Assembly (NCBI RefSeq): GCF_038595005.1
Contig: NZ_CP151997.1
Location: 310,001-374,000, forward strand
DNA: 64,000 bases
Source: Chryseomicrobium sp. FSL W7-1435
Lineage (GTDB): Bacteria; Bacillota; Bacilli; Bacillales_A; Planococcaceae
Reading direction: 5' to 3'
Position 1 is the first letter of the stretch. The number at the start of each line of letters is the position of its first letter. Below the pieces are notes generated by a model that searched no databases, had not been told where the DNA came from, and was given only the letters and a program-made list of their open reading frames with translations. Of this stretch, positions 3,701 through 56,365 are shown piece by piece. The translations under genes and the position numbers were made by a program.

Positions 3701-3886
3701 TAGTTATGGAGATACTTACTGTTTTTCATCTAGATACAAGTTTTTTCTAAAATGGCAGCTCCCTTCAAATCCATGTGTTTTGCTCACAATATTCCATCTC
3801 ATTTTCTCTCTTAAATTTTAGTTAGCGGGTAAAGTATCGAATAAAAAGGGTATAAAGGAAAAAAGAGAAAGTTGGGAGTGATCAAA

Positions 3887-4222
3887 ATGAAAGAACTTGT
3901 TTCATTGGAAGAAGTGAAGGCTTATAGTAAAGAACCTGGACTGCAATTTCTCTATATCCTTACCACTAATTGAAGTGTATGCCACGCCTTACTTCCTCAG
4001 GTGGAGGAAGCAATGACTGGTTTTCCGCATATTCAAACAAGACAAGTAAACGCAGAAGAAATTCCCGAACTTTCCGGGTTTTTGTCCATTTTCACTGTTC
4101 CGGTTCTTATTTTATTCGCTGATGGAAAAGAGATGATGAGGGAAGCGAGATTTGTCCATGTAGAAGAATTTAAAGAGAAAATCAGGAAAATATACGAAGG
4201 ATTCTACTCTTCGGATCAATAA
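3887..4222 (+). CDS. Thioredoxin-like protein with in-frame TGA at the redox site (selenoprotein candidate or pseudogene)
   Basis: From ATG 3887, after a GGGAG ribosome site, the frame reads 28 residues to FLYILTTN, then TGA (3971-3973), then SVCHALLPQVEE and on to a TAA at 4220. Read through, this is a 111-residue thioredoxin-like protein with the cis-proline region FTVPVLILFADGKE intact. Relatives, from memory, carry Cys at the TGA position, giving a CxxC motif; here it would be UxxC. A perfect 7-bp hairpin with a 5-nt AGGTG loop lies at 3992-4010, 25 nt after the TGA, within the window used for bacterial SECIS elements. No sel genes are in the window. A plain nonsense mutation is the alternative; a short product could also start at GTG 4001. 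Confidence 0.6.
3992..4010 (+). promoter_or_regulatory. SECIS-like hairpin downstream of the in-frame TGA
   Basis: CTTCCTC pairs perfectly with GAGGAAG around the loop AGGTG. G is the second loop base, and the loop begins 25 nt after the TGA at 3971-3973. The helix can be extended past one A/C mismatch by TT/AA. The bases also encode LPQVEE, so coding constraint could explain the pairing by chance. Confidence 0.45.
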
Positions 4223-4279: not shown

Positions 4280-4873
4280 TCACTGCGGCTTCTGTCCAAC
4301 AAACTGTATAACGTGGGACAATCCGTTGTGGAGTTCGCCCTCGTTCCGGATGACCTCCCCTAAGAAGAAATGGACGATTCGCCAATCACTAAATTCCTCC
4401 AGAAAGTCTTCAGGCCGGTAGAGAAAGTCCAACTCTTTCGGACCGCCGCTTTGATAAGGGATTTGATTATGGGAATAGACTTCCGCTATAAAATATCCTC
4501 CAGGCCTTACGGCTTCCTTGACTCCTGAAAGGGTTTTCTTACGGACTTCTCCTGGGAAGTGGCCAAAAACATTCACAATCCCGTCCCATTGATTCTGCTG
4601 CCACTCGGCTTCTGCCAGATCGACCAGTTCCGTGCTCACACGGACGCCTTGTTTTGCTGCCAACTTACTCACTTTTTCCAGTCCGGATTCGGCATAATCC
4701 CAGGCCGTGACGTTCAGCCCCTGTCTGGCTAAGAATACAGCATTTCTGCCTTCCCCTTCCGCAATGGTCAAGACTTCCCCAGATAGAGCGGTATACATAT
4801 CCTTTAGAAATACATTCGGTTCGGTTCCATAGACGTATTTCTTATCTTTAAAACGTTCATTCCAGTTAGCCAT
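4280..4873 (-). CDS. Class I SAM-dependent methyltransferase
   Basis: 197 residues of a Rossmann-fold methyltransferase of the TehB/thiopurine-methyltransferase-like kind. Motif I is LTIAEGEGRNAVFLA (about residues 36-50), an acidic residue follows in TAWDYAESGL, and a later motif reads VRPGGYFIAEVY. The N-terminal NERFKDKKYVYGTEPN is typical of this small-molecule methyltransferase group. The ribosome site AAGGAGG is upstream of the ATG. The stop codon of a small upstream ORF overlaps this start. The substrate is unknown; oxyanion or thiol detoxification is possible. Confidence 0.8.
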   Translation of the reverse strand: MANWNERFKDKKYVYGTEPNVFLKDMYTALSGEVLTIAEGEGRNAVFLARQGLNVTAWDYAESGLEKVSKLAAKQGVRVSTELVDLAEAEWQQNQWDGIVNVFGHFPGEVRKKTLSGVKEAVRPGGYFIAEVYSHNQIPYQSGGPKELDFLYRPEDFLEEFSDWRIVHFFLGEVIRNEGELHNGLSHVIQFVGQKPQ

Positions 4874-5126: not shown

Positions 5127-5903
5127 TTACAAGATCTCTGTCCAGATTTTGATGGCTGTCCCTAAAATCAACAGCGCTAAAATCCATTGGAGATATTTCG
5201 TATTCATCTTTTGACCCAGCTTGGCACCAAGCGGGGCTGCCAAAATACTAGCGACGATCATGACCGCTGCGGGACCGTAAAGAATCTGATCAGTAACAAT
5301 TTTTCCAACTGTCGAACCGATTGACGAAATGAACGTAATCGCCAGTGAAGTCGCAATGGTCATCCGCGTTGGAATCTTCAAGACGACCAGCATAATTGGC
5401 ACAAGGATAAAGGCACCTGCTGCACCGACAATACCTGCCGCAATCCCGACGATGAACGCCAGTCCTGCAGCCAGCCATTTATTGAATGTCACTTGGTCGG
5501 TCGGAATATCGTCGACTCCTTTTTTCGGAAGGAACATCATAACTACCGCGATTGTTGCCAAAATAGCATAGACGATGTTGATCGCCTGTTCTGACATCAG
5601 CGTCGAACCGTAGCCCCCGATAAAACTGCCGACCAGGATGGCACCGCCCATATAAGCGATCAGTGTTTTATTCAGATAGCCGCTGCCGCGGTAGGCCCAT
5701 ACACCTGCGATGGTGGCGAAGAACACCTGAATGGCACTGATGCCGGATACTTCATGAGCGCTGAATGCCGTATAGCCGAGTATGACCGGAATATAAAGCA
5801 GCATCGGATATTTGATGATCGAGCCACCGATTCCGACCATTCCGGAGATGAAGGAACCGATGAAGCCGATCAGGAATATGATGATAATAAAATCAAAACT
5901 CAT
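5127..5903 (-). CDS. yrkJ: TauE/SafE-family sulfite/thiosulfate exporter
   Basis: 258 residues with about eight membrane segments and the repeated glycine-rich motif of the TauE/SafE family ([20 protein letters not shown] near the N-terminus and [17 protein letters not shown] in the second half). Members export sulfite, sulfoacetate or related sulfur anions. It is the last gene of the minus-strand sulfur operon and matches the position of B. subtilis yrkJ after yrkI. The inferred job is removal of the sulfite or thiosulfate made by the persulfide dioxygenase upstream. The ribosome site AGAGGTGA precedes the ATG. Confidence 0.85.
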
Positions 5904-5927
5904 CTTTTGTCACCTCTTCCAAAAGCG

Positions 5928-5954
5928 AAAAGGGTATCATGGCGATACCCTTTT
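5928..5954 (-). promoter_or_regulatory. Intergenic hairpin between yrkI and yrkJ
   Basis: AAAAGGGTATC (5928-5938) pairs perfectly with GATACCCTTTT (5944-5954). It may act as a weak attenuator or an RNA-stability element between the two genes of one operon. Confidence 0.6.
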
Positions 5955-5961
5955 ACAACTC

Positions 5962-6192
5962 TTAGCCTTTCTTGATCCAGAATTTAAGGACGCCTTCTTC
6001 TTCTTGTGTATCCAACAATTCGTGGCCGCCTGATTTTGCCCAGGCAGTCATGTCCGCTTTTGCGCCTTTATCAGTAGCAAGGATTTCCAGGATCTGTCCG
6101 GATTCAAGCTCTTTCATTTCTTTTCTTGTTTTCACGATCGGCATTGGGCAAGCCAAGCCTTTTGCGTCTAATACTTTATCTGCGTTCAACAA
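5962..6192 (-). CDS. yrkI: TusA/SirA-family sulfur carrier protein
   Basis: 76 residues, the full length of the TusA fold. The persulfide-carrying cysteine is Cys15 in LDAKGLACPMPIVKT, the family signature. It sits between the rhodanese-dioxygenase gene and the exporter gene, as yrkI does in B. subtilis. The inferred role is to accept sulfane sulfur from rhodanese or DsrE partners and hand it to the dioxygenase. Cytoplasmic. Confidence 0.9.
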   Translation of the reverse strand: MLNADKVLDAKGLACPMPIVKTRKEMKELESGQILEILATDKGAKADMTAWAKSGGHELLDTQEEEGVLKFWIKKG

Positions 6193-6245
6193 AATCTCTC
6201 CTTTTGGGTTTGTATTGTTTTAATTTCAATAAAAATATCTTTTAC

Positions 6246-7373
6246 TTACCGAACCGCACAACGGTTTGGTCCGATTTCCATTTCACGCTGAACTTCTTCG
6301 TCAGGCGTGATTTTGCCCATATTGGTCTTACGGATGTCCTCATAAGCATTCGGCTGCGGCGGCAGGTTTTTCGTTACCATGTCGCGGAACTCCTGCTCAT
6401 CTTCGATATTCAATCCGTGATTTTCTTTGAAAAGGTCGCTTAGTTTTTTCGCGACGCTTCCGTCCGTGTTCAGCTCCTCCATGATCATGAAGTGAGCCGG
6501 TAAAACAATCAGCTCATCCGCCAATTCTGCATAACGGCTGTAAAGCGATTCACGCAGGTCGCCGACCCAATCTTCTGCAAGGCCTGCAAGGTCAGGACGT
6601 CCGATGGAATCGATGAACAGGATATCGCCTGTCATCAAGTACTGATCATCTACGATAAATGATGTCGAACCGATTGTATGCCCCGGCGAGTATAATGCTT
6701 CAATTTCAATTTTTGATTCGCCTAATGCCACTTCAAGGCCATTGACCAATTCCGCATAATCGAATACCACTTCTTCAGCGTCAGCCGGCGGCAAGTAATA
6801 CGTTGCGCCTGTTGCTTCAGCGATTTGGCGTCCTCCGGAAATGTGGTCTGCGTGCAAGTGTGTATCGAATACGTGCTTGATCTTAGCACCTTTTTCCTGC
6901 GCGAAATCCAAGAAGATATCAGTCATGCGTGTTGCATCGATAATAGCGGCTTCACCGTCTGAGATGGTCATGTAAGAAAGGCAGCCTTTTCCGATGCGGA
7001 CGAATTGGTACAATTCCCCGCCATTTTTCAAATCGCCGACTTTCACTGGTTCCAGGTGTTCACTCCAAGCTTTCATGCCGCCTTCAAGGTACGCCGCGTC
7101 GACGCCTTCTTCATCCAGCATTTCCGCTACCATCACAGAAGATCCTTCTTTCGCGCAAACGACAAGAATGTCTCTGTCTTTCGGAAGTTCTGAAACCACT
7201 TCTTCGACACCGTCCAATAAATCAAAATAAGGTGTATTCAGATACTGAATGTTACCGCCTTCGATTTTCCAGTCGGCGAAAGCGTCGCCGTTGCGTACAT
7301 CAAGGATAAATAAAGGCTGGTTATCGATTACTTTACGTGCTACTTCTTTTGCGGTCATTGCTTTTACAGTCAA
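6246..7373 (-). CDS. yrkH: Rhodanese-persulfide dioxygenase fusion (YrkH-like), copy 1
   Basis: 375 residues. An N-terminal rhodanese domain (about 1-110) has the active-site loop VVCAKEGSS with Cys73. The metallo-beta-lactamase domain follows, with THLHADH at about 171-177, then SPGHTIGST and [16 protein letters not shown]. The order rhodanese then MBL is that of YrkH, not that of S. aureus CstB, which has MBL first. I choose TTG 7373, since GGAGGT (7381-7386) is 7 nt away and the product then begins MTVK, as the paralogue at 10245 does; an ATG at 7388 lies inside the ribosome site. Likely reaction: transfer and oxidation of sulfane sulfur to sulfite or thiosulfate. Confidence 0.88.
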
Positions 7374-7417
7374 TTTAAATACCTCCATCCGTATATTCTC
7401 GTTGAGTTTTTACGAGA

Positions 7418-7813
7418 TTAAAATGTTAATGTAACGTCTGCGTCTTTTGCGAATTCAAGGAATGTGACCGCTCCGCCAACATCAATGCCATCGACGAAAG
7501 CTTCTTTCTCAAGGCCGAATAAATCCATTGTCATTTGGCAGCCGATGAATTTCACGTTAAGTTCCTGCGCCATTTCAACCAGTTCCGGGATTGCCGGTAC
7601 ATTTCCTTTTGCGAATCCTTCAGCAATCTGTTCCTTGCCTTCAGGAAGCGGCAATTGGCCATATGCTTCTTTATTGATCAAGTTCAATCCTTCGAATGTA
7701 AAGAAGATTGCCACTTCGTGATCACTTGCCGCTGCTGCTGTTGCGATATTATATACTTTATAAGCATCGAATAATGTTCCGTTTGATGCGATGATTGCTG
7801 TTTTTCCTGCCAT
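7418..7813 (-). CDS. DsrE/DsrF-like (DrsE2-type) sulfur relay protein
   Basis: 131 residues of the DsrE/DsrF/DrsH-like fold. The conserved cysteine is Cys92 in FIGCQMTMDLFG, matching Cys120 in ACTMTMDLLG of the larger DsrE protein encoded at 9181-9660. DsrE2-type proteins bind persulfide and work with TusA and rhodanese in sulfur transfer. It lies between yrkF (TusA-rhodanese) and yrkH in the same operon, which supports that role. Cytoplasmic. Confidence 0.85.
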   Translation of the reverse strand: MAGKTAIIASNGTLFDAYKVYNIATAAAASDHEVAIFFTFEGLNLINKEAYGQLPLPEGKEQIAEGFAKGNVPAIPELVEMAQELNVKFIGCQMTMDLFGLEKEAFVDGIDVGGAVTFLEFAKDADVTLTF

Positions 7814-7850
7814 TTAAAATTCCTCCAGTTAAATTGTATTTTAAAATTGC

Positions 7851-8420
7851 TTACGCGTTGTTTTGCTTAGTTTCGCCGTCCCATTGGCTCATGCCTTCTA
7901 CTGCGTTCTTCACGCGGCCAAAGCCTTTGTCTGCCAATTGTTTTGCAGCGAAATCACTGCGGTTGCCTGTACGGCAAATGACGATTACTTCTTTTTCAGC
8001 ATCTAATTCCTGTGTGCGTTCTTCCAACTCTCCAAGCGGAATGGAAACTGCACCTTCGATATGGCCAAACGCATATTCCGCCGGTTCACGGACATCAAGT
8101 ACTGTTACATCGTCACGGTTCATTTTTTCCTTCAGTTCAGCGTTTGTCACTGTATGCGGAAATTGAACTTCTTCTTTTTCTTCAGACTGATCCGCTTTGC
8201 GCAAATAATGCTTCAGCACATCGCCTTCTTCAAATGTTCCAAGGTACTGGTTGCCGCTGCTTTTCGCCCAGGCTTTAATATCAGCCAAAGACCCTTTGTC
8301 AGTTGCCTGTACTTCAATAACCTGGCCCGGCTCAAGTTCCGTCATTGCTTTCTTTGTGCGTACGATCGGCATTGGGCATGCAAGCCCTTTTGCATCAAGT
8401 AATTTATCTGTTTGAATCAT
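7851..8420 (-). CDS. yrkF: TusA-rhodanese fusion protein (YrkF-like)
   Basis: 189 residues. A TusA domain (1-75) carries Cys15 in KGLACPMPIVRT and is joined by a charged linker to a rhodanese domain (about 92-185) with Cys149 in VIVICRTGNRS. B. subtilis YrkF has the same layout. The fusion of a sulfur donor and a sulfur carrier suggests direct intramolecular persulfide relay. It is the first gene after a CstR operator and promoter at 8436-8451. The ribosome site AGGAGGAA precedes the ATG. Confidence 0.9.
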   Translation of the reverse strand: MIQTDKLLDAKGLACPMPIVRTKKAMTELEPGQVIEVQATDKGSLADIKAWAKSSGNQYLGTFEEGDVLKHYLRKADQSEEKEEVQFPHTVTNAELKEKMNRDDVTVLDVREPAEYAFGHIEGAVSIPLGELEERTQELDAEKEVIVICRTGNRSDFAAKQLADKGFGRVKNAVEGMSQWDGETKQNNA

Positions 8421-8430
8421 TCAAATTCCT

Positions 8431-8462
8431 CCTAATTACCCCACTGGGTATATTTATTGTTA
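8431..8462 (-). promoter_or_regulatory. CstR-type operator and promoter upstream of yrkF
   Basis: TTACCCCACTGGGTAT at 8436-8451 matches the operators at 9684, 9750, 10126 and 11395. On the minus strand, TTAACA and GGTAAT are 17 nt apart, with the operator in the spacer and running into the -10. This makes yrkF to yrkJ a second CstR-controlled transcription unit inside the cluster. Confidence 0.65.
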
Positions 8463-8478
8463 AAAAAATATAGCTTTG

Positions 8479-8775
8479 TTATTCAGTCGGTCCGTCCCAG
8501 TCCATCATACCGCCATCCATATTGATTACATTGTAGCCATGGTTTCCAAGAATGTTCGTCGCCATTCCGCTGCGGCTTCCTGAACGGCATACCATGATGT
8601 GTTCTTGTGATTTGTCGATGTCATGCATACGGAACTCGATCAGGCCTAAAGGAATATTAACAGCGCCAGGAATTTTCCCTGCCTTTACTTCCTCTGTTTC
8701 CCGTACATCAATGATTGAAACATCTTTATTGTTTTTTATATATTCTTGTACTTCTTGTGCAGTCATTCTTTTCAT
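8479..8775 (-). CDS. Single-domain rhodanese
   Basis: 98 residues, a stand-alone rhodanese domain with active-site Cys63 in MVCRSGSRSG and the preceding signature IIDVRETEEV. It moves sulfane sulfur between thiols. It lies between a membrane-anchored rhodanese gene and yrkF. No signal peptide is seen. Confidence 0.88.
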   Translation of the reverse strand: MKRMTAQEVQEYIKNNKDVSIIDVRETEEVKAGKIPGAVNIPLGLIEFRMHDIDKSQEHIMVCRSGSRSGMATNILGNHGYNVINMDGGMMDWDGPTE

Positions 8776-8793
8776 TTGTTATTCCTCCTTAGT

Positions 8794-9159
8794 TTACGAG
8801 CGGTAGCTTCCCATGCCGCCTCTTACATTAATCACATTAGTAAAACCATTTTTGTTTAGGATTGAAGCTGCCTTGCTGCTTCGAATGCCGCTTTGGCAAA
8901 TAACATACGTTTCTTTATTTTTGTCAAGTTCACTTACTCGACTTGGCAATTCATTCAATGGAATGTTCTTGAATTCCTTGATGCGGTTTGCCTTAAACTC
9001 TCCAGGCGTCCATACATCGATGAATTGTTTATCTTTTTTCTTCAATTGAGATTTCAGCTCGTCAGTGGAAATGGATTTTGCACCTTTTGCCGGTGACATG
9101 GCGCGGTAACCGATAAATACGATTACAGCTCCGATTAAAACGATTAACCAAGTATCCAT
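8794..9159 (-). CDS. Membrane-anchored rhodanese
   Basis: 121 residues. An N-terminal membrane helix (about 4-19, WLIVLIGAVIVFIG) is followed by a rhodanese domain with Cys88 in YVICQSGIRSS. The catalytic domain is probably cytoplasmic by the positive-inside rule (YRAMSPAKGAK follows the helix). It may collect sulfane sulfur at the membrane and pass it to the soluble relay proteins encoded beside it. The family resembles YtwF/YqhL-type rhodaneses of bacilli. Confidence 0.85.
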   Translation of the reverse strand: MDTWLIVLIGAVIVFIGYRAMSPAKGAKSISTDELKSQLKKKDKQFIDVWTPGEFKANRIKEFKNIPLNELPSRVSELDKNKETYVICQSGIRSSKAASILNKNGFTNVINVRGGMGSYRS

Positions 9160-9180
9160 GTTTTCCCTCTTTTCCTTCTA

Positions 9181-9660
9181 TTAGATGAACAAGTTTACAT
9201 TGCCGTCTTCAGCATCTGCCAAATAAGCGGCTACACCTGCATACGTAATGCCATCAAGCAATTCTTCCTGCTTCAATCCAAGAAGATCCATTGTCATCGT
9301 ACAAGCAACAAGATTGATTTCCTGTTCCTCTGCCATTTCAATCAATTGCGGCATCGTCATTGCATTGTGTTTTTGGATAACCTGCTTGATCATTTTCGGG
9401 CCCATACCACCCATGTGCATATTGGATAAGCCAAGTTTGTCCGCACCGCGCGGCATCATTTTGGCAAACATTTTTTCCAGACGTGTTTTTTTCACTGCCG
9501 GCGGATTGTCTTTCCGTAATGCATTCAATCCCCAGAATGTGTGGAAGATCGTCACTTCGTGATCATAAGCCGCTGCTCCGTTCGCAATAATATAAGCAGC
9601 CATTGCCTTATCGTAATCTCCGCTGAATAATATGATGTTAGTGGATTTTTTCTGTTCCAA
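9181..9660 (-). CDS. yrkE: DsrE/DsrF/DrsH-like protein (YrkE-like)
   Basis: 159 residues of the DrsE2 fold with Cys120 in LVACTMTMDLLG and a methionine-rich linker (NMHMGGMGPKM, about 80-90). YrkE of B. subtilis has the same type and position next to the csoR-like gene. It is the first gene of the operon that starts at the CstR-controlled promoter at 9681-9710. The start codon is TTG after GAGGGGG. Likely a persulfide carrier. Confidence 0.88.
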   Translation of the reverse strand: MEQKKSTNIILFSGDYDKAMAAYIIANGAAAYDHEVTIFHTFWGLNALRKDNPPAVKKTRLEKMFAKMMPRGADKLGLSNMHMGGMGPKMIKQVIQKHNAMTMPQLIEMAEEQEINLVACTMTMDLLGLKQEELLDGITYAGVAAYLADAEDGNVNLFI

Positions 9661-9680
9661 TTGCTTGTTTCCCCCTCGAT

Positions 9681-9710
9681 AATATACCCCGCAGGGTATT
9701 TAAAAGTCAA
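9681..9710 (-). promoter_or_regulatory. CstR-controlled promoter of the yrkE operon
   Basis: On the minus strand, TTGACT (9705-9710) and TATATT (9681-9686) are 18 nt apart. The palindrome ATACCCCGCAGGGTAT (9684-9699) fills the spacer and overlaps the -10, so a bound repressor would block polymerase. Confidence 0.75.
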
Positions 9711-9749
9711 AAATAAAAAATGCACCGGCTCCAGCAACAAAGAAATTAA

Positions 9750-9765
9750 ATACCTATAGGGGTAT
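9750..9765. promoter_or_regulatory. Second CstR-type operator upstream of yrkE
   Basis: ATACCTATAGGGGTAT has the same half-sites as the other operators. No clear minus-strand promoter overlaps it. It may be an auxiliary site 66 bp upstream of the main operator. Confidence 0.6.
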
Positions 9766-9779
9766 AATAACATCCAAAT

Positions 9780-9814
9780 GAAAGTTCGTCAACCCGAAAG
9801 TTTGACGAACTTTC
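9780..9814 (-). terminator. Hairpin at the 3' end of cstR
   Basis: GAAAGTTCGTCAA (9780-9792) pairs perfectly over 13 bp with TTGACGAACTTTC (9802-9814), right after the cstR stop. There is no clear U-run, so termination may be weak. Confidence 0.6.
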
Positions 9815-10075
9815 TTAGCGGCTTTTTACAAGAAGACTGACTGCATCTTTTACAAGCTGATCCGTGCTTTCACCTTTGCTGACGCTGTCGCGCACACATT
9901 GCTCCAGGTTTTCGCTGACAATTACGCCGATTGCGCGGTCAACCGCACTTCTGACAGCAGACAATTGAGTTACCACATCGCGGCAGTCATCGTTTTCTTC
10001 GACCATGCGAATTACACCTTTCAACTGGCCTTCAATTCGCTTTAAGCGATTCTGGACTTGTTTATCGTATTCCAT
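9815..10075 (-). CDS. cstR: CstR, persulfide-sensing CsoR-family repressor
   Basis: 86 residues of the all-helical CsoR/RcnR family (RLKRIEGQLKGVIRMVEE). Two cysteines lie at positions 31 and 60, exactly the pair used by S. aureus CstR to form di-, tri- or tetrasulfide links on reaction with persulfides. The copper-binding histidine of CsoR, four residues before the second cysteine, is replaced by Asn56, which argues against copper sensing. It controls its own promoter and the sulfur operons through the five operators listed here. Confidence 0.92.
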   Translation of the reverse strand: MEYDKQVQNRLKRIEGQLKGVIRMVEENDDCRDVVTQLSAVRSAVDRAIGVIVSENLEQCVRDSVSKGESTDQLVKDAVSLLVKSR

Positions 10076-10120
10076 CTTTGCTTGCCTCCTTGTTGATTTC
10101 TTTATTAATACTATAACCCT

Positions 10121-10149
10121 ACTATATACCCCTTAGGGTATAATTTCAA
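10121..10149 (-). promoter_or_regulatory. Autoregulated promoter of cstR
   Basis: On the minus strand, TTGAAA (10144-10149) and TATAGT (10121-10126) are 17 nt apart. ATACCCCTTAGGGTAT (10126-10141) covers nearly the whole spacer. Confidence 0.75.
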
Positions 10150-10167
10150 GTGATTGAACTGAGTATT

Positions 10168-10234
10168 AAAAACGGATAATCCGCTGACCTTTGCTCAGTT
10201 TAGAACTAAACATTTTCGCGGTCAAGGATTATCC
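10168..10234 (-). terminator. Terminator of the second yrkH-like gene
   Basis: GGATAATCC (10174-10182) pairs with GGATTATCC (10226-10234), supported by TGACC/GGTCA inside. A run of five Us follows on the minus strand. Confidence 0.7.
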
Positions 10235-10244
10235 ATTTCTTCTA

Positions 10245-11363
10245 TTATACTGCGCAGTTATTCGGGCCGGTTTCCATTTCTTTCTCTTCTTCAAGTGGCG
10301 GATGGATTTTGCCCATGTTCGTCTGGCGTATTTCTTCATAGGCATTCGGCTGATCTTTCAAGCCTTCTGTCACCCGTTTGATGAACTTTTCTTCATCATT
10401 AATCTGCAGGCCTTCATTGTTCTGATAAAGGTCAGACAGTTTTCCAGAAACACTGCCGTCTTCATTCAGTTCACTGACGTCCGCGTAATGGGCCGGAAGC
10501 ACGAGAAGATTGTCCGCTAATTTCTTATAGCGGCTGTAGAGAGTTTCGTACAGATCATCTGCCCAGTCCCCCGCTTTGCCGGCAAGGTCCGGGCGCCCGA
10601 TCGATTCAACGAACAGAATGTCCCCCGTCAACAGATATTTATTGTCGACAACGAATGTGGTACTGCCGATCGTATGCCCCGGAGAGTATACCGCTTCGAT
10701 TACCGCACTGCCGACTTCCAGTTTCATGCCGTCGGTAACCGGTTCAAAAGCAAATACGACTTCTTCCGCATCGTCCGGCGGCAAATAATAAGTGGCATCT
10801 GCCGAGTCCGCCAGTTTTTTACCACCCGAAATGTGATCGGCATGCAAATGCGTATCGATAACATGCTTAATTTTCAACCCTTTTTCACGCGCAAACTCTT
10901 CATAGTTTTCTGTCATTCTGCTGGCATCGACGATTGCAGCCTCTCCGTCGGATTCGATCAAATAAGAAAGGCAGCCTTTGCCCAGACGCACAAACTGATA
11001 AAGCGCCCCTCCGGCCACTTCGCCGATTTTGACAGCTTCAAGCTGTTCACTCCAGGCAGCCATTCCGCCTTCAATCGAAATCACGTTATCAAAACCATTT
11101 TCCTGCAAAAAGGCTGCAGCTTTTTGTGAAGTATTCCCTTTTCCGCAAACCGTATACAGCGTCTCGTTTTCCGGCAGCTCTTTCAAGTCGGACGAGTCGG
11201 AATTACTCAACTCTTTGAACGGTATATTGATTAATTGAACATGATCGCCTTCAATTTTCCAGTCTTCCGATTCCTCTTTGCTGCGGACATCCAATACATA
11301 AATCGGCTCATTCTTAAAAACCTGATCAGCCACTTTCTTTGGTGATACGGATTTCACTGTCAT
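10245..11363 (-). CDS. Rhodanese-persulfide dioxygenase fusion (YrkH-like), copy 2
   Basis: 372 residues, colinear with the gene at 6246-7373: rhodanese domain with Cys73 in TVCGKGNTS, then MBL domain with THLHADH at 171-177 and LLTGDILFVESIGRPD. The two copies clearly differ in sequence, so this is not a recent duplication. It is a single-gene unit with its own CstR operator and promoter upstream and its own terminator. It may act on a different thiol persulfide than copy 1; that is inference. Confidence 0.88.
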   Translation of the reverse strand: MTVKSVSPKKVADQVFKNEPIYVLDVRSKEESEDWKIEGDHVQLINIPFKELSNSDSSDLKELPENETLYTVCGKGNTSQKAAAFLQENGFDNVISIEGGMAAWSEQLEAVKIGEVAGGALYQFVRLGKGCLSYLIESDGEAAIVDASRMTENYEEFAREKGLKIKHVIDTHLHADHISGGKKLADSADATYYLPPDDAEEVVFAFEPVTDGMKLEVGSAVIEAVYSPGHTIGSTTFVVDNKYLLTGDILFVESIGRPDLAGKAGDWADDLYETLYSRYKKLADNLLVLPAHYADVSELNEDGSVSGKLSDLYQNNEGLQINDEEKFIKRVTEGLKDQPNAYEEIRQTNMGKIHPPLEEEKEMETGPNNCAV

Positions 11364-11389
11364 ATAGAATTCCTCCTTGCCAATAAACC

Positions 11390-11422
11390 CTTAATTACCG
11401 CACGGGGTATATTGAGTGCTAA
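11390..11422 (-). promoter_or_regulatory. CstR-type operator and promoter of the second yrkH-like gene
   Basis: TTACCGCACGGGGTAT (11395-11410) lies between TTAGCA and GGTAAT, 17 nt apart on the minus strand. This is the same layout as in front of yrkF. Confidence 0.65.
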
Positions 11423-11433
11423 AAAAATTTGGC

Positions 11434-11817
11434 TTAGACTGTCTTGTCGATACAGCCGATCAATCTTTCTTCAATATCCACTGCGATTTCTTTGATCGAT
11501 TCATTATTGACCATCTGAATTAGCGCACTTGGTTTCGGCATGCCGATTTTTGTAATGCCTTCCTCTTCGTAAACAACAATTTTACATGGAAGGAAATAGC
11601 CGACCATTAAATCTTCCGACAGGACGCGGTTTGCTTCCTGCGGGTTGCAAACTTCAAGTATGGTATACGGCGTATTGAAATCCGTTCCTTTTTCCTGAAG
11701 CTTTGCCGTCAAATCGAAATTCCAAAGCACCCCGAATTTCTCATCCTTCAAGTTCGCTTCCAAATCCCGGACTGCTTCGTCCTTGCTTTTGCTTGTTTCA
11801 ACTGTGTAATCAAACAT
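11434..11817 (-). CDS. DUF302-family protein
   Basis: 127 residues matching the DUF302 fold (DYTVETSKSKDEAVRDLEAN, later EVCNPQEANRVL and GYFLPCKIVVYEEEG). The function of DUF302 is not known. Members are often found beside rhodanese, thioredoxin or metal-stress genes, and this one ends 23 bp before a CstR operator. Two cysteines (in EVCNP and FLPCK) could carry persulfide. Its own upstream region has no CstR operator. Cytoplasmic. Confidence 0.8.
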   Translation of the reverse strand: MFDYTVETSKSKDEAVRDLEANLKDEKFGVLWNFDLTAKLQEKGTDFNTPYTILEVCNPQEANRVLSEDLMVGYFLPCKIVVYEEEGITKIGMPKPSALIQMVNNESIKEIAVDIEERLIGCIDKTV

Positions 11818-19061: not shown

Positions 19062-19117
19062 GCGAAAACACCTGTATCGTAATTGTTGTCTAGACAAACC
19101 ACGATAGGAGTTTTCGC
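19062..19117 (+). promoter_or_regulatory. Palindrome hiding the transposase ribosome site
   Basis: The arms GCGAAAACACCTGTATCGT (19062-19080) and ACGATAGGAGTTTTCGC (19101-19117) pair with few mismatches. The GGAG ribosome site of the transposase lies in the right arm. Transcripts entering from outside would fold and limit translation. Confidence 0.5.
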
Positions 19118-19118
19118 C

Positions 19119-20282
19119 TTGTCCCAACAGTTTATCAAATTAGTCCTTCCACTTCCATCATTTTTTACAATTCATCCGTCATCCGACAACGAACCAAACG
19201 TGTTTCGAATTTCTACGCTGAACCGTCCAGTCTCATGTCTTGTCTGTTCAAGTCAGACAGTCCGCCACTCAAAGGAACGTCGCCGTTTTAGACATTCCTA
19301 CGCCTGGGGCGTAGGGACGATCTGGATCGAGATAGATGTCCCACGCCAGGTCTGTAAAGAATGTGGTATCACGTTTGTTCATGACTTTGGCTTAGGCCTA
19401 GTTCGTTCTTCCACCAGACATTATAGAGTGGAGATTGCAAAACGTTGTCATGGTAGGACAATCTCTGATGTCTCGCGTGAGTATGGTGTTCCGTACACGA
19501 CCGTTGAAAGGTGGTTCTATCAATACGCTTCGCGCCAGTTGGAGACTAAAACCGCAAGGCATGTCTTGGTCGATGAGTTCGCTACGCGCAAAGGTCATCA
19601 TTACGCGACAGTGGTCCTTGATGCGAAATCCGGGTGCGTCCTTTCGATAGTTGAAGGTAGAGATGAAGCTGCAATCTCTTTGGCTCTCTCTCAAGTGAAG
19701 AGCTCTATTCAAACAGTAGTCAGTGACTTTGCGCCAGCCATGTCGAAGGCCACAAATTCTGTGATACCAGATGCGACCCATGTGCTCGATCGTTTCCACC
19801 TGATCCAGTTTTTTACGGATGCGCTGCGACGCCGTCGGCGTTTTCTGGATGAAACTAAACGTCACTATCACGTACGTACAATAGATCGTTCCCTAGCATG
19901 TCGTCCAGAACAATTAGACGATGCAGACTTAGAGGTCGCACGGGCATGCCTTCGCGAAGACGAGTTCATCAAGGACATCTATTACGGATTACAACATATG
20001 CGATTTGTATTGAAGTCGACTACATCTGGACAAGCTTCTCGTCGTCTAAAAGAGTGGATCGACCGTTTCATGTTTCATCCATGTGGGCCGCTGGCCAAGA
20101 TTGCAAAAGCTGTGATAGTGCGTCAACGTGAGATGGAAAACACAATACTCTCGCCTCTCTCTAACGGGAAAATAGAAGGTACAAACAATAAGATCAAACT
20201 GATCAAACGAAGAGCTTTCGGGTATCGTAATCTGAATAACTTCTTCACAAGGTTAAAACTTGAACTAGGAAGCTCAAAATAG
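19119..20282 (+). CDS. ISL3-family transposase
   Basis: About 387 residues from TTG 19119, spaced 8 nt from GGAG; an in-frame TTG at 19083 is possible. It shows a zinc-finger-like N-terminus (CLVCSSQTVRHS ... QVCKECGITF), a helix-turn-helix (TISDVSREYGVPYTTVERWF), and the DDE domain with VLVDEFATRKGHHYATVVLD, SDFAPAM, HVLDRFHLIQFF and the C-terminal glutamate in NGKIEGTNNKIKLIKR. The frame is intact, so the element may be active. Confidence 0.92.
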   Translation: MSQQFIKLVLPLPSFFTIHPSSDNEPNVFRISTLNRPVSCLVCSSQTVRHSKERRRFRHSYAWGVGTIWIEIDVPRQVCKECGITFVHDFGLGLVRSSTRHYRVEIAKRCHGRTISDVSREYGVPYTTVERWFYQYASRQLETKTARHVLVDEFATRKGHHYATVVLDAKSGCVLSIVEGRDEAAISLALSQVKSSIQTVVSDFAPAMSKATNSVIPDATHVLDRFHLIQFFTDALRRRRRFLDETKRHYHVRTIDRSLACRPEQLDDADLEVARACLREDEFIKDIYYGLQHMRFVLKSTTSGQASRRLKEWIDRFMFHPCGPLAKIAKAVIVRQREMENTILSPLSNGKIEGTNNKIKLIKRRAFGYRNLNNFFTRLKLELGSSK

Positions 20283-20307
20283 CAACCACGAGTTATGGTG
20301 ATGAACC

Positions 20308-20690
20308 TTATTTTTTGAAGAAATCCCTTTCTTTACCTTTACCATAGGAGATTCTCCTACAAATCCACCAATAGCTTCATAGTGTCTATAAAACGAACTT
20401 AATGTAGCCAAGTAGCGATTGAGTGTCGCAGGAGATACTCTTCCTGAATTATGTCTACCATCAATAAATTCAACAAAGTTGGTTAGAAATGCTGGCCTAA
20501 CCTCATAAAATTTTAAGTTCTCTCTCTCAAGCCAAATATAAAAAACTCTTAAATCCTCAAGATAACTTTTGATTGTATTTGGTGAAAAACCTTTTATTTC
20601 CATAGCAGCAGTAAAATCTAATACTTCTGGAAAAATTCTCATATTAGAATCTACAAGTACATATGATGATATAGTCTTTTCCACTTTCAT
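20308..20690 (-). pseudogene. Tyrosine recombinase N-terminal fragment cut by the ISL3 element
   Basis: About 127 host residues of a phage-integrase N-terminal (SAM-like) domain: KGFSPNTIKSYLEDLRVFYI and VSPATLNRYLATLSSFYRHY. The reading frame enters the right inverted repeat at 20307 and stops at 20274, so the catalytic domain with its Arg-His-Arg-Tyr residues is missing. It resembles recombinases of Tn554-like elements and site-specific integrases. It is the likely relic of the enzyme that brought the left-hand region to the 3' side of rpsR. Confidence 0.8.
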
Positions 20691-33141: not shown

Positions 33142-33924
33142 TTATTGAATAGGTTCAATGACTAAGTGACGGTAAGGATCTGCTCCTACTGAATACGTGT
33201 CGATGTCTACGTGAGTAGAGAGGGCATTGTGAATGATTTTGCGCTCGTAAGCGTTCATCGGTTCAAATTCTACCTTTTCACCTGAACGACGGGCTTTATC
33301 TGCCATCCGTTCTGCCAATTGCTCTAGAGAAACTTTTCGTTTTTCACGGTAGTTCTCGACATCGATTTTGACAATCATGAAGTTGCCAGAGTACTTGTTG
33401 GCGACTAATTGCACCAAGTTTTCAAGTGCATTCAACGTCTGCCCTCGTTTACCGATGAGCTGCGCGGCTTTTGCACTGTTCAATTGGAAGTGTACGTACT
33501 TTCCTTCGACTTCATGCGTCACATCCAGGTCTTCAATACCCATACCTTGTGCCACTTGCTTCATGTATTGAATGGACTCTTCAATCGCCTGGTCGTTGGA
33601 AGCGGGTTCAGCCTCAACTTTGAAAGCTTGTGACTGTTCAACCGCTGCCTCAACTGGCTGTTCACTGACGTCTTCCGCTACCGGAGACACGGTTTCTTCT
33701 ATAGAAGAGACCACTGGTTGTTCTGAAATTAGAGAGGATGGTGCTTCTACACCATCATTGACATTCACTATCACAACTGCAGGCTTCGCTCCTAGACCGA
33801 GAAAGCCTTTTTTACCTTCATCTAAAATCTTGATCGATGCTTGGTCACGACTAATTCCAAGCTCTTTTAACGCTTGTTGAATTGCCTGCTCACTGTTTGC
33901 TGCAGTTTGTGTAGTGGATCTCAT
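33142..33924 (-). CDS. jag: RNA-binding protein Jag (KhpB)
   Basis: 260 residues. The Jag_N domain contains KGFLGLGAKPA, an acidic Glu/Val/Ser-rich linker follows (about 65-110), then a KH domain with LIGKRGQTLNALENL and an R3H domain with NAYERKIIHNAL. It binds RNA with KhpA and affects cell wall growth and sporulation. Its start overlaps the yidC stop by 4 bp. Confidence 0.94.
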   Translation of the reverse strand: MRSTTQTAANSEQAIQQALKELGISRDQASIKILDEGKKGFLGLGAKPAVVIVNVNDGVEAPSSLISEQPVVSSIEETVSPVAEDVSEQPVEAAVEQSQAFKVEAEPASNDQAIEESIQYMKQVAQGMGIEDLDVTHEVEGKYVHFQLNSAKAAQLIGKRGQTLNALENLVQLVANKYSGNFMIVKIDVENYREKRKVSLEQLAERMADKARRSGEKVEFEPMNAYERKIIHNALSTHVDIDTYSVGADPYRHLVIEPIQ

Positions 33925-56134: not shown

Positions 56135-56365
56135 AATTTCATGTGCGAAAAACGATGATCGGAAGCAGTAACAAGCCCGTTTTTTCAAGAGAGTCAGCGG
56201 TTGGTGAGAGCTGATAAAAACACTTGTGAATCCATCCTGAGAGTTGTCTCCGGTATAACGGAGACCGGTCAAGAGGCCGTTATGAGACAAGTGGTGTTCG
56301 TATGGACACAACCAGGGTGGTAACGCGGGTAGCTCTCGTCCCTTTTTTAGGGATGGGGGCTTTTT
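56135..56365 (+). promoter_or_regulatory. T-box riboswitch (tRNA-Ser) of serS
   Basis: The T-box AGGGTGGTAACGCGG is at 56314-56328, followed by the terminator hairpin GCTCTCGTCCC ... GGGATGGGGGC and Ts to 56365. In the upstream stem I, GAATCC places a probable specifier codon TCC (Ser) at 56231-56233. Uncharged tRNA-Ser would stabilise the antiterminator and raise serS expression. Confidence 0.88.

Follow-up and report, generated by a model that had tools for sequence, protein, structure and literature searches.

A thioredoxin-like selenoprotein gene, probably stranded without its decoding machinery, in Chryseomicrobium sp. FSL W7-1435

In the 64,000-nucleotide stretch of DNA analysed here (the window, to which all positions refer unless another contig is named), the forward-strand gene at 3887-4222 was identified as that of a UxxC thioredoxin-like selenoprotein, from its match to Pfam family PF00085 and its UGA-bearing homologs. 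It is probably a stranded selenoprotein gene, acquired horizontally without the decoding machinery, not yet decayed, and silent in its host today. As judged by sequence comparison, the family is one of genuine bSECIS selenoproteins and the window gene is a selenoprotein gene by descent, because the TGA and the hairpin are kept in 16 other genomes that possess selA, and the Cys homologs are mostly devoid of the hairpin.

Reading frame, protein and hairpin

The frame runs from ATG 3887 to TAA 4222, and direct reading and translation confirmed the initial annotation in that its single interruption is the TGA at 3971-3973 (+), in the place of the first CxxC cysteine (residue 29). The surrounding residues are TTN-U-SVCH, forming a UxxCH motif, and the base following the UGA is A. 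The product would consist of 111 residues if the UGA is read, and of 28 residues if it is not. A Shine-Dalgarno-like sequence, GGGAGTGA, was read directly upstream of the ATG at 3874-3881 (+). Reinitiation within the gene at GTG 4001 was rejected as a possibility: a ribosome-binding site was not seen there, the codon is GTT or GTC elsewhere, and the product would be without the CxxC site.

A profile search with the translated protein gave 27.1 bits for the thioredoxin family PF00085 (cut-off 23.5), and 30.1 bits for the TrxA equivalog TIGR01068, which is below the 96.8 bits needed. In the alignment with homologs, all invariant residues are retained in the window copy, including the cis-proline P72, and the CxxC site is at the position required. 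The closest solved chain is 4euy_A (E = 8e-17). The window protein is about 50-81% identical to the 16 UGA-bearing homologs.

The hairpin CTTCCTC-AGGTG-GAGGAAG occupies positions 3992-4010 (+). It consists of a perfect 7-bp stem (3992-3998 paired with 4004-4010) and a five-nucleotide loop, AGGTG, at 3999-4003, with a G at the second loop position and a fold energy of -8.9 kcal/mol. It is separated from the UGA by 18 nt, and the loop by 25 nt. These coordinates bear out the hairpin as it was originally described; the distance of 19 nt given then is the count to the first base of the stem, so that the two figures agree. The published bSECIS model comprises a loop of 3-9 nt, a stem of 4-16 bp, a G in the first two loop positions, a distance of 16-37 nt from the UGA, and a minimum free energy of at most -7.5 kcal/mol (PMC13188914). 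The window hairpin satisfies this bacterial model for loop, stem, G, spacing and energy, without any difference in structure.

Folding energy alone is unremarkable, with a z-score of -0.24 against shuffles for the 50 nt from the UGA. Within the 64-kb window, a bSECIS-like hairpin accompanies 3 of the 83 frames opened by reading through a TGA, and the frame at 3887-4222 is the only one of the three with the TGA at the active-site Cys of the protein. Of the other two, that at 56227 has one codon before its TGA, and that at 33878 faces a longer ORF on the other strand. The exact hairpin sequence occurs once in the window. The combination of TGA and hairpin is beyond chance because it is common to 17 genomes, and not because of its folding energy.

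Distribution of the UGA codon, the hairpin and the selenocysteine machinery

Homologs were searched for in 261 genomes of the organism's family and in contigs of GTDB species. TGA was found at the same codon in the window and in 16 other genomes: 12 of Planococcus/Planomicrobium, two of a second group (one being Indiicoccus explosivorum), Bacillus sp. ISL-45, and Salirhabdus sp. Marseille-P4669. In this column of the alignment, the codon is TGA in 17 genomes and TGC or TGT in about 80 others. The hairpin is present at the identical offset in 17/17 TGA genomes, with fold energies from -6.7 to -10.7 and a stem of seven pairs in 15 copies and six in the remaining two, and most of the 82 Cys homologs are without it. 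The outcome that would have spoken against the initial proposal, namely a TGA confined to this strain among relatives with Cys and no hairpin, is clearly not what was observed. A locus flagged as a further TGA bearer (G110) was discarded, as it carries Cys and an ordinary terminal stop. One Cys homolog from outside the Sec clade (L055:1501-1809, genome G254) has a 6-bp hairpin, CTTCCTC-GGGTA-GAGGAAA, at the place of the SECIS, which is either a relic or due to chance.

The codons of the hairpin show the strongest synonymous conservation in the gene, with a relative synonymous entropy of 0.21 versus 0.79 elsewhere. Synonymous shuffling yielded seven pairs in 1.8% of draws, in a test that is not independent as the sequences are related. 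Covariation is slight, consisting of one compensatory change from T-A to G-C in Indiicoccus together with G-U changes, and was equalled in 38 of 500 shuffles. Synonymous constraint is stronger evidence for the hairpin than covariation.

All 16 other TGA genomes possess selA, and tRNA-Sec is present in the 14 of them that belong to the window's family. Across this family, selA was found in 27 of 261 genomes, among which are all 14 TGA bearers (the window excluded); the association of selA with TGA (14/14 versus 13/246) has p = 4e-16, uncorrected for relatedness. In close relatives, a distance of about 16-30 kb separates the sel genes from the thioredoxin gene, and in Bacillus sp. ISL-45 selB is within 1.5 kb of it. 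In Planococcus halotolerans, selA, selB, tRNA-Sec and selD are clustered close together, and selD itself (L078:11049-12047) contains an in-frame UGA (GGUGCK) followed by a strong hairpin. This lineage can be taken to decode Sec, since selA, selB, tRNA-Sec and a UGA-bearing selD are all present.

The genome of the window organism is assembled as one contig of 2,710,361 bases, with a completeness of 100. When this whole contig was searched, selA, selB, selD and tRNA-Sec all remained below the family cut-offs. Sub-cut-off matches to selB and selD were rejected; their frame lengths and neighbours suggest EF-Tu, IF-2, EF-G, LepA/TypA, PrfC and PurM/PurL. None of the genome's tRNAs, located with RF00005 and typed by ARAGORN, has the anticodon UCA. 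A suppressor tRNA was also sought, and the tRNA hits that were examined carry ordinary anticodons. Profile searches found both selA and tRNA-Sec to be absent from the window genome, its three congeners and P. koreensis. The proposal that Sec is inserted in place of Cys is upheld in part: the 16 other genomes support a selenoprotein gene by descent, and the lack of selA, selB, selD and tRNA-Sec, an outcome named at the outset as refuting, counts against Sec insertion in this organism.

Genomic neighbourhood and origin of the gene

A TehB-like SAM methyltransferase gene (4280-4873, -) converges on the thioredoxin gene and is 83-84% identical to the gene adjoining the UGA-thioredoxin in P. halotolerans, Planomicrobium sp. 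Y74 and Planococcus sp. CAU13. It is followed by a sulfur/persulfide detoxification island (5127-11817, -) with genes for TauE, TusA, two MBL-rhodaneses, two DsrE proteins, a TusA-rhodanese, rhodaneses, CsoR and DUF302, where CsoR, DUF302 and the single rhodaneses were named by reading. The island is 77-100% identical to Planococcus proteins that adjoin the UGA-thioredoxin there, the DUF302 gene having 99% DNA identity, and the genomes in which these counterparts neighbour the UGA-thioredoxin gene are those of P. halotolerans, Planomicrobium sp. Y74, P. okeanokoites and Planococcus sp. MER TA 32b. The order is permuted, being island, thioredoxin and (methyltransferase) in Planococcus, and thioredoxin, methyltransferase and island in the window. 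On the far side of the region, an ISL3-like transposase (19083-20282, +) and a truncated integrase-like ORF (20274-20690, -) were named from sequence alone. The initial annotation held that other genes of the island carry premature stops; this was not the case, as the sulfur-island genes are full-length relative to their Planococcus homologs, and the only truncated-looking gene is the integrase-like fragment, outside the sulfur-island block. The 10 kb to the left of the window (L217) has the look of a resistance island, with arsA, arsC, arsB and a second arsenite transporter recognized by reading.

Other surroundings were encountered elsewhere. A thioredoxin reductase gene is divergent from the UGA-thioredoxin gene in three Planococcus genomes (P. 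chinensis, G090 and G101), with TIGR01292 above its cut-off in P. chinensis; such a gene was noted at L089:8692-9639 and at the matching positions of L090 and L091. In Bacillus sp. ISL-45 (L113:3322-9307), the UGA-thioredoxin gene is flanked by TehB/MduS-like methyltransferase genes, a DnaN-like gene and selB.

In the tree, all TGA copies are gathered in one clade (support 99/97), with the Cys form of P. koreensis inside. The window copy groups beside Planococcus sequences (84/84), with moderate support for its exact position. The P. koreensis version (L040 / L106) has a degraded hairpin in a genome without selA, and from its nested position is best read as a Sec-to-Cys change accompanying the absence of the Sec trait. 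The three congeners are without the gene, and have only paralogs at 28-39% identity. The region is apparently horizontally acquired DNA: the thioredoxin gene is absent in congeners, the closest relatives are in another genus, and mobile elements are nearby.

Synonymous distances to Planococcus are uneven. The dS is 0.04 for DUF302 and 1.5-1.95 for the thioredoxin; taken together, the thioredoxin and methyltransferase genes range over 0.9-1.95, versus values from 0.04 for several island genes. These strong differences between genes mark the region as a mosaic, in which the thioredoxin probably stems from an unsampled donor. The thioredoxin and methyltransferase genes may differ from the island genes in their donor or in the time of their arrival.

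State of the gene and competing explanations

The window gene has a dN/dS of 0.06-0.08 with its relatives, comparable values within Planococcus being 0.03-0.09, and three-taxon counts of lineage-specific substitutions are like those of its sisters. Neither decay nor a relaxation of selection was seen. This would point either to a recent transfer or to a product that is still used; the former is the simpler reading, because nothing able to decode the UGA was found. An intact Cys paralog, 43% identical, is encoded elsewhere in the same genome (L005, contig positions 1690436-1690729), and may provide this host with the thioredoxin-like function.

For the stranded gene, the following sequence of events is proposed. 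In the relatives, SelB and tRNA-Sec would decode the UGA as Sec through the hairpin starting 18 nt downstream. The gene would have been transferred horizontally into the window genome, together with or near the sulfur-detoxification island, the likeliest source being a Planococcus-type donor that is unsampled, and the sel genes would have been left behind or later lost. As neither Sec machinery nor a UCA tRNA was found, translation in the present host should end at residue 28, save for low-level near-cognate readthrough. The gene would be a recent relict that has not yet decayed.

Other histories and other fates were weighed. Inheritance from an ancestor of the genus that had the Sec trait, this species having kept the gene after the sel genes were lost, is unlikely: the Sec-bearing genera do belong to the same family, but both the gene and selA are missing from the three congeners, the tree places the gene among Planococcus sequences, and the neighbouring island has its high identity to Planococcus. 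An ordinary nonsense mutation or a sequencing error beside a chance hairpin might be thought compatible with the unexceptional folding energy, but is refuted by the recurrence of both the TGA and the hairpin in 16 further genomes, every one of which has selA, and hardly deserves consideration.

The intact gene and hairpin and the purifying selection would also be expected of a functional selenoprotein, if the Sec machinery were on a replicon missing from the assembly, such as a plasmid, or too divergent to be detected. This is quite improbable for a single-contig genome of completeness 100, when the same searches strongly find selA and tRNA-Sec in 14 relatives of the family and nothing here, and when the three congeners are also without selA. 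Equally doubtful is near-cognate readthrough at a useful level, with the UGA read as Cys, Trp or another residue and the ribosome possibly slowed by the hairpin. The A following the UGA and the undecayed frame are in its favour, but no suppressor tRNA was found, Trp at the position of the nucleophile would not be redox active, and the intact Cys paralog is available. There is likewise little probability that a functional thioredoxin results from SelB-independent decoding, by a near-cognate tRNA aided by the hairpin or by a novel factor.

In the relatives, the product is likely a small thioredoxin with a Sec nucleophile. The divergent thioredoxin reductase gene in Planococcus would fit a selenothioredoxin reduced by TrxR, and the TehB-like methyltransferase and persulfide-related neighbours suggest a role in chalcogen or thiol detoxification.

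A thioredoxin selenoprotein family (PF00085, UxxC) is listed in PMC13188914 and named for several bacteria in PMC1794560. The window gene resembles these known proteins in its thioredoxin match, in its Sec codon at the first position of UxxC, and in its in-frame bSECIS just downstream. Unlike them, it encodes a protein below the TrxA equivalog cut-off, belongs to a clade in Planococcaceae/Bacillaceae, and stands without decoding machinery. As with orphan selD and partial selenium traits (PMC5029168), one piece of a selenium system is alone in a genome, but the orphan here is a selenoprotein gene and not a machinery gene. Sec-to-Cys conversions with remnant SECIS elements (PMC1794560) reflect the same dynamics of gain and loss, of which P. 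koreensis is an example, whereas the window copy retains the UGA and a perfect hairpin despite the absent sel genes. No description of Planococcus selenoproteins was found in the literature searched, whose reach stopped short of subscription papers and supplements.

With these results, the Planococcaceae gain a clade of UxxC thioredoxin-like selenoproteins whose SECIS is almost invariant. The window copy would be a rarely seen case of a selenoprotein gene that was transferred into, or has stayed behind in, a genome unable to decode it and, with the Cys form of P. koreensis, which also lacks selA, would illustrate two outcomes of lacking the Sec trait. It calls for caution, in that a UGA and a SECIS alone are no proof of Sec use, and it may offer a natural test of the effect of a SECIS hairpin on the ribosome without SelB.
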